Shown one piece after another: positions 4,982-25,206 of a DNA stretch of 25,907 nucleotides (the first letter of the stretch is position 1; each line of letters opens with the position of its first letter). Source of the stretch: a virus. The notes beneath the pieces were generated by a model. It saw only the letters and a list, made by a program, of their open reading frames with translations, had not been told where the DNA came from and searched no databases. Location: positions 1 to 25,907 of the IMG/VR virus record IMGVR_UViG_3300044641_000719; one strand, given 5' to 3'. A program made the translations under genes and the position numbers.

Positions 4982-5518
4982 TTAACCAGCCACTTCCAAG
5001 TTCGCTGCTACTGAAGCAGACACCACAAGGAAATCTTCACGCTCAACAGAACTGAACGTCAATACTGAGCCGTTTCTGTCACCAGCGGCAGTACCTGAAC
5101 CGCTCTCGGTTGTGTCCAAAAACAGACCGAACTCTTTACCGAACATGCGATACGTTCCGTCCATTTCTTTGGTCACGATTGTAACGCGATTCTTTGCCAA
5201 GGTAGAAATAGTGTTTCTAACTGAAGCAGAACGCGCGTTAATTGGGAAGGTAACTTGATGCGTAAAGAAAATCGTTCCGTTCTCTTGTGAACCAGTCATC
5301 GCGTTTGAACTTGAAGCAGTAGCACGTGGAACTTCGAACTTCCAGAAACGCTTGCCAGACGCTTTGGTCATGGCTGTAACCGTTCCGCTAACTTCAGTCA
5401 CGCGGCTGTTTCCAGACGCATCGTAAAGGGCGGAGTTTTCAATCAAATAGATGGCTTCAATTCCACCTACCGATTCGCGGCAGTCAATAACATAACCACC
5501 AGTAATTGCACAAGGCAT
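4982..5518 (-). CDS. Major tail tube protein
   Basis: This 178-residue protein begins MPCAITGGYVIDCRESVGGI and has the alternating beta pattern of tail tube subunits: VSGTVTAMTKASGKRFWKF, then NGTIFFTHQVTFPI, VRNTISTLAKNRVTIV and a late AAGDRNGSVLTFSS segment. The order and spacing match tail tube proteins I know from Bacteroidota phages. It is flanked on both sides by strong intrinsic terminators, fitting a highly expressed structural gene with its own short transcript. Identification rests on pattern recognition; an alternative is another abundant beta-sandwich virion protein. Confidence 0.7.
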   Translation of the reverse strand: MPCAITGGYVIDCRESVGGIEAIYLIENSALYDASGNSRVTEVSGTVTAMTKASGKRFWKFEVPRATASSSNAMTGSQENGTIFFTHQVTFPINARSASVRNTISTLAKNRVTIVTKEMDGTYRMFGKEFGLFLDTTESGSGTAAGDRNGSVLTFSSVEREDFLVVSASVAANLEVAG

Positions 5519-5533
5519 AGTATTTAGATTTAG

Positions 5534-5567
5534 AAAAAAAGGGCGGTGTTTATTTCACCACCCTTTT
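5534..5567 (-). terminator. Intrinsic terminator between capsid and tail tube genes
   Basis: On the minus strand, a 12-bp stem (AAAAGGGTGGTG paired with CACCGCCCTTTT, one G-U pair) closes a 7-nt AAATAAA loop and is followed by seven T in all. It lies ~20 nt after the capsid stop and ~16 nt before the tail-tube ATG, leaving no room for a new promoter between hairpin and start. Confidence 0.9.
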
Positions 5568-5588
5568 CTTTTGTTAGTTAATCAGATA

Positions 5589-21957: not shown

Positions 21958-22143
21958 TTATACGATTACGGTCCGTCCAACATATTCAGACCAGCAGAAA
22001 AAACCCCTTGCGGTTAAGTCCGACTTTTCTTTGTTTCTATATTTTTCGTTGGATGTTTCAAGACTGCATTTTTTGGAGCAGTATTTTTTGGTGTGGAAGT
22101 TCGTTTGAAATTCCTCGTTGCACCTTGCGCATATTTTTGTCAT
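21958..22143 (-). CDS. Zinc-ribbon protein
   Basis: This 61-residue protein has CARCNEEF, then KKYCSKKC, four cysteines in two CxxC-type pairs that should hold one zinc ion in a ribbon. A final GFFCWSEYVGRTVIV segment may be a short beta strand. Small zinc-ribbon proteins are common in phages as DNA-, RNA- or protein-binding parts. It starts by ATGA overlap with the sigma-like gene at 22140-22143, which suggests the two act together or are co-translated. The partner is unknown. Confidence 0.65.
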   Translation of the reverse strand: MTKICARCNEEFQTNFHTKKYCSKKCSLETSNEKYRNKEKSDLTARGFFCWSEYVGRTVIV

Positions 22144-22655
22144 GTGTTTTTGTTTATGTGTTTTTTTAATTCATTACGGCATTGATTAACTACATCGTTC
22201 ACGTGCTTTCGTGGTATTCCGAAATACCTTGCTACTTCCGAGCAGTTCAGGCTTTCCGAATACTTCTGAAAAATAATACTTTCATGCGCATCTTTTGCGC
22301 TTTGCTGCAACTTTTTGTCAAGTACCTTTTGAGCAATTTCCCCAGTCGCTGAATAATCGCGTCCGATAAATTGGTACAAATACTCTTGCGCCCTTTTCAG
22401 GTCGTTCTTTTTGTAGGTATAGTAAAACGAACTGGTTGACGAATAAGCCAGATTCCAAATGATTCGAAGCATGAACCCGATGATATTTCCGTCCGTCTTA
22501 ATCTTCATTAACTCATCGCAGTCATATTCCAACAAAATCAAAAAGAACTCTTGTTTCAAATCGTCTTGTAATTCAATCGGGTGAATCTTGGAAATAACCT
22601 GATTGATTTTCGCATCCGAATACATCTGTTCAATATAGTCATGGCATTGGTTCAA
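22140..22655 (-). CDS. Sigma-factor-like protein
   Basis: This 171-residue protein has a region-2-like first half (HPIELQDDLKQEFFLILLEY, then GFMLRIIWNLAYSS) and a C-terminal helix-turn-helix like sigma region 4 (ESIIFQKYSESLNCSEVARY, then FGIPRKHVNDVVNQCRNEL). It could redirect host RNA polymerase to phage promoters, for example those of later genes. It is joined by ATGA overlaps to the VRR-NUC gene before it and the zinc-ribbon gene after it. The assignment is by layout and motif order; sequence identity to host sigma factors looks low, so confidence is moderate. Confidence 0.65.
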   Translation of the reverse strand: MNQCHDYIEQMYSDAKINQVISKIHPIELQDDLKQEFFLILLEYDCDELMKIKTDGNIIGFMLRIIWNLAYSSTSSFYYTYKKNDLKRAQEYLYQFIGRDYSATGEIAQKVLDKKLQQSAKDAHESIIFQKYSESLNCSEVARYFGIPRKHVNDVVNQCRNELKKHINKNT

Positions 22656-22936
22656 AGTCGCAGTTGAATTAAGATGTCATTCAAACAAGTCGCCACGTGA
22701 ACCTGACCTTTCCATTTTTCAAAAAACGTGACTTCCATCGGTGTTAACTTTTGCTGGCTGGGTGGCTTGGCTCCGTCCTTGATTTCAAAAAGGTAATTCA
22801 ATCCACCATAACCGACCACAATGTCTGGAACTCCCTTGCCGATTGTGTGAATTGAGAAAACCGTCACACCGGATATTTTCCGAAGCGCATCCACTATCTG
22901 CTTTTGGTTGTCGTCAACTTTGCGTATCACGTGCAA
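22652..22936 (-). CDS. VRR-NUC domain nuclease
   Basis: This 94-residue protein reads as a VRR-NUC nuclease: VDALRKISGVTVFSIHTIG, then KGVPDIVVGYGGLNYLFEIK, then DGAKPPSQQKLTPMEVTF. The VPD and FEIK residues form the PD...ExK metal-binding core. VRR-NUC phage proteins cut branched or structured DNA and may resolve recombination or packaging intermediates. The listed start is TTG (22936); a GTG two codons on (22930) is nearly as good. It overlaps the preceding gene by ~20 nt and the sigma-like gene by ATGA. Confidence 0.8.
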   Translation of the reverse strand: MHVIRKVDDNQKQIVDALRKISGVTVFSIHTIGKGVPDIVVGYGGLNYLFEIKDGAKPPSQQKLTPMEVTFFEKWKGQVHVATCLNDILIQLRL

Positions 22937-23200: not shown

Positions 23201-23361
23201 TCGTCATCCCCCTCGGTAATTTGGTTAACTACTGATTCGGGAAATGTAAGTCCTACCATTGCGGCTTTGAACATGTTATACCATTCGAAAATGTCGATGT
23301 CGCTACGTTCAGCGGTGATGGTCACGGTTATTCCGTGATTAGTTGCAGTCAGTTGTGTCAT
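23197..23361 (-). CDS. Small acidic phage protein
   Basis: This 54-residue protein (MTQLTATNHGITVTITAERS, then DIDIFEWYNMFKAAMVGLTF and an acidic end ITEGDDE) starts at ATG 23361, overlapping the upstream gene by 23 nt, and ends by ATGA with the next gene. The helix with WYNMFKAAMVGLTFPES matches a small-protein type I recall from Bacteroidota phages. No catalytic residues are evident. A regulatory or adaptor role is possible but not shown. Confidence 0.6.
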   Translation of the reverse strand: MTQLTATNHGITVTITAERSDIDIFEWYNMFKAAMVGLTFPESVVNQITEGDDE

Positions 23362-24010
23362 AGTATTTTTTTATTGCCAGTCGTTTGAAAATGCCGTCTA
23401 TTGCGACCGATTCCTCGAAACTGATTGTCTTGAAGTGGTCTTCCTTCATTGCCTTAAATCGTTTCCATTCGTTCCGGTCTCCGTCCCCTTTGATTTGCGC
23501 TTCGCGTATCTTAATGGCCTCAGCATACATCGAGACCTTTTCTTCGTCCGTCAACTTCAGTAAATCCAGTTGAACCATGAAGTCGTAAAGGTAGGAAGGT
23601 ATCAAAGGCAGCCGAATGTTTTTACCTCGGTAGTTTTCAATTTCAGCAAGTTTTTCAGCGTCTGTCATCTTGTATTCGATTTGCTTCGGCAGTTCTTCCG
23701 GCGTTTCGCGCCATAAAGTTGACACAAATCTTCGATATGAAAAAATTATTTTTTGAAGATAGGGAATGCTGAACTGGTCGAATGGGTTCAAGTCGGTCAC
23801 GTCAAGCCGTCCCTGAATGCCTAACTTGAACGCTGCCAGTAGTTCGTCCTTTGCCATTTTGGGGTAAGTGTCCCGTAGGAATTCCATCAGGATTCGTGCT
23901 TCAAAGTCGGTCGGGTGATGCTGCTTGCGAAGTCCAATCCAAACGTAAATCCGCATCAACGCTTCCTGAATTTCGATGTCAGTTGATTTTTCGAGTGGCT
24001 TTCTCCTCAT
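23339..24010 (-). CDS. Replication-region protein, possible helicase-loader role
   Basis: This protein is read here as 223 residues from ATG 24010 (MRRKPLEKSTDIEIQEALMR); an ATG at 24079 gives 246 residues but overlaps the DUF1376 gene by 101 nt. The protein is mostly helical and contains FLRDTYPKMAKDELLAAFKL, then DVTDLNPFDQFSIPYLQKII. It follows the DUF1376 initiator-type gene, the place where lambda P-like loaders lie. No Walker motif is visible, so an ATPase loader of the DnaC type is excluded by eye, but a non-ATPase loader or accessory is possible. Confidence 0.55.
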   Translation of the reverse strand: MRRKPLEKSTDIEIQEALMRIYVWIGLRKQHHPTDFEARILMEFLRDTYPKMAKDELLAAFKLGIQGRLDVTDLNPFDQFSIPYLQKIIFSYRRFVSTLWRETPEELPKQIEYKMTDAEKLAEIENYRGKNIRLPLIPSYLYDFMVQLDLLKLTDEEKVSMYAEAIKIREAQIKGDGDRNEWKRFKAMKEDHFKTISFEESVAIDGIFKRLAIKKYYDTTDCN

Positions 24011-24728
24011 CAGTTCCGAAAGTGTCGACCATGTGATTCCAGTAGTCGATTCGTGCTTGGTCGCGATTTGCTGGTTCATTTTTATCGGTTTTAGGTAAAA
24101 CTAACATTCTCCATCCGTGAGCCATTGTGTAGTTCAAAATATCAATGGCAAGTGATTCACTTTGGTTTGCTTTTTTTACAAGCAAATTAAAAGCACTTTG
24201 TTCACTTGAAGGCGATTTGTATTTGAATCTGTGCTGTTGAAATCTGTATGCCTTCCATTCGTTCCAGTGTTGCATGAAATTTTCTGAAAATGGGTAAATA
24301 CTTAATTCATTAGCATTTATATTTTCATTTTCATTTTCATTTTCCATATGTTGCAACATATGTGAATCATATGAAGTAGATATGTTAATCTTATGTCCTG
24401 ATTTTTTTGATTGAATTTCGGTCTGTTCCTCTTCGTCTTTTTTGCTCAAACGATTGCCCCTTCTACTTTCCGTGTAATTTTGACGCTTGTTTTTTTCAAA
24501 TTCAAGACGTTCGTTGTAGAATAGTCCTTGCGAATCTTGTTTGAACTTCTGCTTAATATGTTGCCAGTTATGTCCAATGATACGTTCAATCATATGTTCC
24601 GACATATGTCCGCGATTAAATTGCAGAATCAGGACTTCGATATACGCGCCCTTTTCTTCCAATGTCATCCCGATTGTTCCCCCCAGCCAATCGCCGGGGT
24701 AGAACAAAAATGCTGGGTCTTTTGCCAT
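23979..24728 (-). CDS. DUF1376 replication initiator-like protein
   Basis: This 249-residue protein is read from ATG 24728 (MAKDPAFLFYPGDWLGGTIG); an earlier ATG at 24761 lies inside a terminator hairpin and is unlikely. Residues ~1-90 are a DUF1376 domain (MTLEEKGAYIEVLILQFNRG follows), a winged-helix fold used by phage initiators. A basic linker and the low-complexity ENENENEN stretch follow (a GAAAAT repeat). The C-terminal half (FMQHWNEWKAYRFQQHRF, DILNYTMAHGWRML) resembles the C-terminus of such proteins. It may bind the dyads inside its own gene. It lies just before a possible loader gene. Confidence 0.75.
   Translation of the reverse strand: MAKDPAFLFYPGDWLGGTIGMTLEEKGAYIEVLILQFNRGHMSEHMIERIIGHNWQHIKQKFKQDSQGLFYNERLEFEKNKRQNYTESRRGNRLSKKDEEEQTEIQSKKSGHKINISTSYDSHMLQHMENENENENINANELSIYPFSENFMQHWNEWKAYRFQQHRFKYKSPSSEQSAFNLLVKKANQSESLAIDILNYTMAHGWRMLVLPKTDKNEPANRDQARIDYWNHMVDTFGTDEEKATRKIN
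24321..24344. repeat. Four tandem hexamer repeats (ATTTTC / GAAAAT)
   Basis: Four exact copies of ATTTTC lie back to back (24321-24326, 24327-24332, 24333-24338, 24339-24344). In the coding sense they encode ENENENEN in the linker of the DUF1376 protein. AT-rich tandem repeats are typical of regions where the two DNA strands open at an origin, and of low-complexity linkers. Confidence 0.9.
24345..24362. repeat. Perfect 18-bp palindrome (origin-like dyad 1)
   Basis: CATATGTTGCAACATATG reads the same on both strands. It directly abuts the AT-rich hexamer repeats. A further CATATG follows at 24368-24373. A near-copy lies at 24591-24608 in the same gene. Confidence 0.9.
24591..24608. repeat. Imperfect second 18-bp copy (origin-like dyad 2)
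   Basis: CATATGTTCCGACATATG matches dyad 1 at 15 of 18 positions, keeping both CATATG arms and differing in the three central bases. The two copies start 246 nt apart in the DUF1376 gene. In the protein they encode HMLQHM and HMSEHM. Confidence 0.85.
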
Positions 24729-24837: not shown

Positions 24838-25206
24838 TTAAACTTTACAGAACACCAAACTTTGGTATGTTTTTTCGTGGACGAATTCCAACCGCTCCTG
24901 ATATTCAGGATAAACAGAACAAAAGTTTTCAAGTTTACGAAGTAGGTGATAAATCGTTGAATGACATGAAAGTCCAAGCAATTCCGCTACGTCCCCAAGT
25001 CCCAGTCCGAGTGCTGGATTTGAATAAAGGACATGCGCCAGAATCATTCTACCTTCGACCAACTGCGGACGTCTGCTTTTCTTTTTTAAGTCCTTGTGCT
25101 TGATTCCAATGGCTTCACAAGCCACTTCGATTATTTGTTGGGCGTCTTTGAAAATAGGTTCTTTTGCTTCGTTGAGCATTAATTGTTTACATCGGGTGCA
25201 AATCAT
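24838..25206 (-). CDS. Stand-alone DnaA domain-IV-like protein
   Basis: This 122-residue protein is read from ATG 25206, joined by ATGA overlap to the preceding gene. Residues ~20-95 match the DNA-binding domain of DnaA: AQQIIEVACEAIGIKHKDLK, then RRPQLVEGRMILAHVLY, DVAELLGLS and CHSTIYHLLRKLE, which lines up with the DHTTVLHA helix signature of DnaA. No ATPase domain (I-III) is present. The first 10 residues contain CTRC. It could bind DnaA-type boxes in phage or host DNA and act as initiator, competitor or regulator. It precedes the DUF1376 gene, so both may act at the phage origin. Confidence 0.75.
   Translation of the reverse strand: MICTRCKQLMLNEAKEPIFKDAQQIIEVACEAIGIKHKDLKKKSRRPQLVEGRMILAHVLYSNPALGLGLGDVAELLGLSCHSTIYHLLRKLENFCSVYPEYQERLEFVHEKTYQSLVFCKV

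Follow-up and report, generated by a model that had tools for sequence, protein, structure and literature searches.

The repeat cluster in a replication gene of the window (the whole 25,907-nt stretch of viral DNA analysed, IMG/VR record IMGVR_UViG_3300044641_000719) is very probably a phage replication origin, placed lambda-like within the gene that encodes its initiator, where the encoded protein would bind and replication would fire. An earlier note, made from the letters of the window, had proposed an origin inside this gene, and comparison with related genes bears the proposal out. Two repeat-bearing sites (sites I and II) and the A-rich hexamer tract next to site II are conserved at the DNA level, the two sites change in concert, by computed stability no other stretch of the window would melt as easily as the tract, and the gene stands in a replication context. 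For most environmental phages it is not known, to our knowledge, where replication starts; the arrangement would make it possible to find the origin, a probable unwinding element and a probable initiator by reading the sequence of any phage or prophage with this domain-of-unknown-function head.

The probable initiator gene and its repeats

The features of the region are collected in Table 1. The product of the initiator gene is a DUF1376-like "primosomal" protein, in which a disordered linker joins the N-terminal head to a helical C-terminus. Its only PHROG matches are 9327 ("primosomal protein", 3e-8) and 18589, and its score against Pfam DUF1376 (PF07120; E = 0.0026, 18.5 bits) lies below the curated cut-off of 30.1. 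We call it DUF1376-like because YdaU, a DUF1376 protein (92 bits), also matches PHROG 9327, and because its structural model is matched by predicted viral proteins named DUF1376. In this AlphaFold2 model (mean pLDDT 84), the head is helical with a short two-strand element and is followed by a low-confidence linker (the lowest values, 46-61, around residues 111-140) and by the helical C-terminus. A fold search of the model against the PDB returned nothing significant and no solved structure; in a viral structure library, the model matched predicted proteins, DUF1376 and Lin1244/Lin1753-like. Family searches gave no homology to lambda O over the head and no O-like PHROG match for the window protein. 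An O-like PHROG is matched by 11 of 74 relatives, in YdaU over residues 112-259 and not over the head, and the C-terminal parts of the relatives have matches in several initiation families, O-like and DnaD-like ones included.

Table 1. Features of the initiator region (positions in the window).
Feature	Position	Strand	Details
Replication initiator gene	23982..24728	minus	249 aa (MAKDPAFLFY...); translation, Pfam, PHROG, AlphaFold2
Site I dyad CATATGTCGGAACATATG	24591..24608	minus	head-coding part; encodes HMSEHM, aa 41-46
Linker-coding part (aa about 111-147)	24288..24398	minus	low pLDDT; holds site II and the tract
Site II, third CATATG	24368..24373	minus	11 nt from the next copy; other frame, read through SYD
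Site II, perfect 18-bp palindrome CATATGTTGCAACATATG	24345..24362	minus	two CATATG 12 nt apart; encodes HMLQHM
Hexamer tract (GAAAAT)4 and continuation	24309..24344	minus	directly after the last iteron; four ATTTTC at about 24321-24344
Upstream gene, DnaA domain IV-like helix-turn-helix	24841..25206	minus	Bac_DnaA_C 4.3e-7

The palindrome, its near-copy, the additional CATATG elements and the four hexamers described in the earlier note were all found again where it had placed them. The near-copy (24591-24608, CATATGTTCCGACATATG) is 89% identical to the palindrome at 24345-24362 and starts 246 nt away; its codons lie just before and into a predicted helix (residues 44-61). Five of the six CATATG of the 25.9-kb window fall inside the initiator gene, and the window holds 6 matches to the pattern CATATGTNNNNACATATG at no more than 3 mismatches, where 0.91 would be expected. 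The least stable stretches of the window, 24294-24353 for 60 nt and 24315-24394 for 80 nt, both overlap the tract. The GC skew of the window is uninformative on the origin, since the contig is possibly partial and nearly all of its genes lie on one strand.

Taken alone, the window gene carries a weak signal. Compared with synonymous codon shuffles that keep the protein and the codon usage, it has 5 CATATG where 3.2 are expected (P = 0.06), a longest palindrome of 18 instead of 10.5 (P = 0.13) and a site I-site II match with P = 0.02, so that its dyads exceed only weakly what the encoded protein would impose (P 0.02-0.13). The dyads had been judged in the earlier note to be consistent with selection on the DNA: this reading holds with the relatives included, but the dyads of the window gene are by themselves statistically insufficient for it. 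As judged from sequence comparison, the excess of CATATG and dyads becomes decisive only once related genes are added.

Repeats conserved as DNA among related genes

Related genes were collected from IMG/VR and GTDB contigs with search patterns free of the repeats, yielding 161 usable genes including that of the window, 99 of them non-redundant (<80% identical to each other). The head occurs in Bacteroidota, Clostridia and Proteobacteria and in one cyanobacterium, in their phages and prophages; no cultured Bacteroidota phage carrying the initiator gene was found in the phage collection, but the CATATG pattern is present in prophages of cultured Flavobacterium (L245, L257, L265, L281). CATATG reaches 4.28 per kb in the 99 non-redundant genes, compared with 0.149 per kb in the flanking ±1.5 kb. 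When only the 44 GTDB-derived genes are counted, the values are 2.69 and 0.20 per kb, with 43, 26 and 21 copies in the three frames. The copies cluster at two places, at about nt 80-215 in the head-coding part and about nt 290-415 in the linker-coding part, and (GAAAAT)n-like hexamers usually come after the last copy. Successive copies less than 60 nt apart are spaced by 11, 12, 22, 23 or 24 nt and, once, by 36 nt, no other spacing being found. The first copy at site I and the last at site II lie 258 nt apart in the window; the median for the relatives is 211 nt. Most relatives have CATATG in the site I region, in frames 0, 1 and 2. The second dyad noticed earlier thus exists, not as a stray near-copy but as a second conserved site, in the part of the gene coding for the putative DNA-binding head.

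Could the repeats be a consequence of the protein? Under such an explanation, HMxxHM and MENENEN would be conserved as peptides and the palindrome would simply result from the use of CAT and ATG codons. The shuffles of the window gene do reach the palindrome in 13% and the CATATG count in 6% of cases, and GHM at site I is common within one branch of the relatives. The relatives at large argue against it. Frame-shifted CATATG copies number 79, where synonymous shuffles predict 23.5, the copies keep their 11- or 12-nt spacing in all three frames, and the tree requires at least 17 changes of frame at site II and at least 8 at site I. The His codon before Met is CAT at 225:10, compared with 223:123 elsewhere. 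Moreover, the nearest relatives (L002 and L003) lack HMxxHM, reading PYVHHM at site II and LFICR at site I, and keep the CATATG elements in other frames. The earlier note had suspected DNA-level selection and had named, as a way to refute it, relatives that preserve the protein and not the dyad bases; what the relatives do is the reverse, changing the protein and keeping the CATATG arrays.

The tract follows the same logic. Its codons obey NNA NNT almost without exception while the encoded residues vary, E, V, I or R and then N, D, T or I. Over 75 arrays (81% A+T), Glu is GAA in 193/193 and Asp GAT in 31/31 codons; Val is GTA in 39/39 (34% in the rest), Ile ATA in 23/23 (41%) and Asn AAT in 201/201 (64%). 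Because repeats and a meltable stretch cluster at these places in dozens of distant relatives, in changing frames, we conclude that the repeats are kept as DNA and not as protein; together with the different repeats that occupy the same places in relatives lacking CATATG (see below), this leaves the protein-level explanation very little probability. In 58 of 73 relatives the tract belongs to the 5% of the gene with the lowest stability; as predicted from its sequence and computed stability, it is a probable DNA unwinding element.

Concerted change of sites I and II

The bases flanking CATATG are alike at the two sites of a given genome and vary from one genome to the next. Within genomes, the best match of site I to site II scores 14.3, against 10.3 when the sites are swapped (0 of 10,000 permutations), and flank concordance is 0.42 against 0.27 (0 of 20,000 permutations); these permutation P-values ignore relatedness, which the tree counts of frame changes answer in part. 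Several relatives without CATATG (e.g. L247, L256, L272, L282) carry a different repeat at both places, followed by A-rich hexamers. Thus GCCGTGGCA is found at sites I and II of L256, AGATAACCCAAA, with a 12-nt period, at both sites of L272, and GCGACCCTTGAAG at both places in L282 and L284. Site II seemingly stands alone in L249, L260, L266 and L270. A count of repeated words per gene was swamped by A/T-rich words, and we used the site I-site II test in its place. Of 11 annotated phages of other hosts, chosen before their repeats were inspected, five, from Pseudomonas, Leptolyngbya, Vibrio, Acinetobacter and Bordetella, show the site I-site II repeat (Fisher P = 3.5e-5); the other six do not. 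The head columns that covary most with flank type lie mostly in residues 34-54, a covariation that is confounded for residues 40-61 since site I itself encodes part of the helix and the rows are related.

Mosaic genes of E. coli point in the same direction. In L297, the YdaU head and its repeats are joined to a DnaT-type C-terminus, beside a lambda P-like gene, so that this head occurs with its repeats on two different C-termini in E. coli. Conversely, L292 (E. coli 50579417) has a non-DUF1376 head on the YdaU C-terminus, with dyads GTAACGC-N6-GCGTTAC at both places (945-969 and 1153-1176, 207 nt apart). Most simply read, these sequences suggest that the iterons are recognised by the head and are transferred along with it. 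The annotations of L294 (ETEC1706) and of L295 (Z1323CEC0018) break the hybrid initiator gene, which precedes ydaV, into two partial pseudogenes.

The Rac prophage of E. coli K-12 has an active origin, oriJ (PMC3945230). Like the genes studied here, its ydaU (L288) encodes a DUF1376 initiator, with an O-like C-terminus, and is followed by a DnaC-like loader gene, ydaV. Copies of GRTGTTCAAACA are clustered where ydaU codes for the linker, and weaker ones occur where it codes for the head; the repeats lie at 5261-5274 and 5472-5577, then comes an A-rich stretch. The iteron sequence differs from that of the window, and the site I-site II match is not significant (P = 0.23). The GRTGTTCAAACA cluster is a candidate for oriJ, and ydaU is a family member ready for laboratory work.

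Known origins, neighbouring genes and other readings

Lambda O and gene 18 of P22 and phage L carry initiator-specific iterons and an A+T-rich tract in mid-gene, the iteron sequence varying by lineage (PMC5043065, PMC7466680, PMC8022706). The earlier note had compared the cluster to lambda gene O, rightly so: the iterons of gene O (nt 349-433) and the P22 ori (353-497) occupy the same relative place as site II. The head, however, showed no relation to lambda O in our family searches, and lambda has 19-bp inverted repeats every 20-24 nt, unlike the short CATATG-cored repeats found here every 11-12 nt; the tract is strictly hexameric, unlike those of lambda, P22 and phage L, and no equivalent of site I was found when sought in lambda O and P22 18. 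In Bacillus phage SPP1, which we set beside the window by description, the oriL repeats and unwinding element similarly lie within gene 38, encoding the replisome organizer G38P, but a second origin lies about 13 kb from oriL (PMC6316719). Short direct repeats in the middle of a replication gene were also suggested as the origin of the Acinetobacter obolenskviruses Brutus and Scipio; the available part of that report's text, however, neither names DUF1376 nor reports a second site (PMC10888812). One Acinetobacter phage among our loci (L305) has a DUF1376-like gene before DnaB, with the two-site pattern. The arrangement is thus of a known kind, since known or proposed origins lie inside lambda O, gene 18, gene 38 and the obolenskvirus gene. 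What appears to be new is its occurrence across DUF1376-like initiators, with CATATG iterons bearing lineage-specific flanks, together with the strictly hexameric tract and a further site where the head is encoded, the latter without counterpart in lambda O and P22 18.

The replication context is evident from the neighbours. Among 79 ORFs downstream of the relatives' initiator genes, 27 match DnaB_C, 13 the DnaB N-domain, 9 Toprim and 3 loader-like ATPases, linking the gene to helicase or loader genes across relatives, a DnaB or primase gene being a frequent follower; the window's own next gene has no recognised domain. From this pattern we infer a mechanism in which the N-terminal head would bind the CATATG-cored iterons at both sites, about 210-250 bp apart and possibly looped together, the nucleoprotein complex would melt the A-rich tract next to site II, and the C-terminal domain would recruit a helicase or loader (DnaB-type or DnaC/P-type, often encoded by the next gene), allowing the origin to fire. 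Site I may be part of the origin or may serve autoregulation or copy control, perhaps in addition to an origin.

Two other readings keep the sites as protein targets and change either their function or their binder. The cluster might be a set of operators through which the initiator or another regulator controls transcription of the initiator operon, or silences replication instead of starting it. Dyads and phased repeats would suit many DNA-binding proteins, site I lies apart from the melting tract, and the window does encode a DnaA domain IV-like protein. However, the sites are within coding sequence and not at the gene start, and the conserved, unstable A-rich hexamers that regularly follow site II fit an unwinding element better; we hold this reading improbable. 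About equally small is the chance that the origin is bound by another protein, either host DnaA or the DnaA-C-like neighbour. The Bac_DnaA_C-like gene directly upstream speaks for such a binder, as does a DnaA-annotated small gene after the DUF1376 gene in two alphaproteobacterial phages. But homologues of the upstream gene (24841-25206) were found by homology search at 8 loci only, and the scanned ORFs held such a gene once among 51 upstream and once among 79 downstream of the initiator; this unconserved neighbour is probably not the iteron binder. Moreover, the mark sought for a DnaA-dependent, oriC-type origin, the DnaA box TTATNCACA, has no exact copy on either strand of the window, and the iterons are lineage-specific and, in the E. 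coli mosaics, accompany the head.

If the encoded head is indeed the binder, a more speculative extension, which we offer tentatively and consider rather doubtful, is that the head segment is a self-contained specificity cassette. The DNA encoding the start of the putative recognition helix would be the head's own binding site, the initiator would bridge sites I and II over ~20 helical turns for copy control or origin opening, and iteron and head would change together and move as a unit by recombination just after the iterons. Were this true, the origin would be readable from sequence in any phage with a DUF1376-like head. The lineage-specific iterons and their matched heads form a natural series for studying DNA recognition.

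Some observations concern other genes of the window. The gene at 23342-24079 overlaps the 3' end of the initiator gene and has no recognised Pfam domain; five relatives have a homologue immediately after the initiator gene, and its product is possibly a helicase loader. Further along, a small gene (22655-22936) matches PHROG 93, an endonuclease, and its neighbour (22143-22655) gives weak sigma-70 region 4-like matches.
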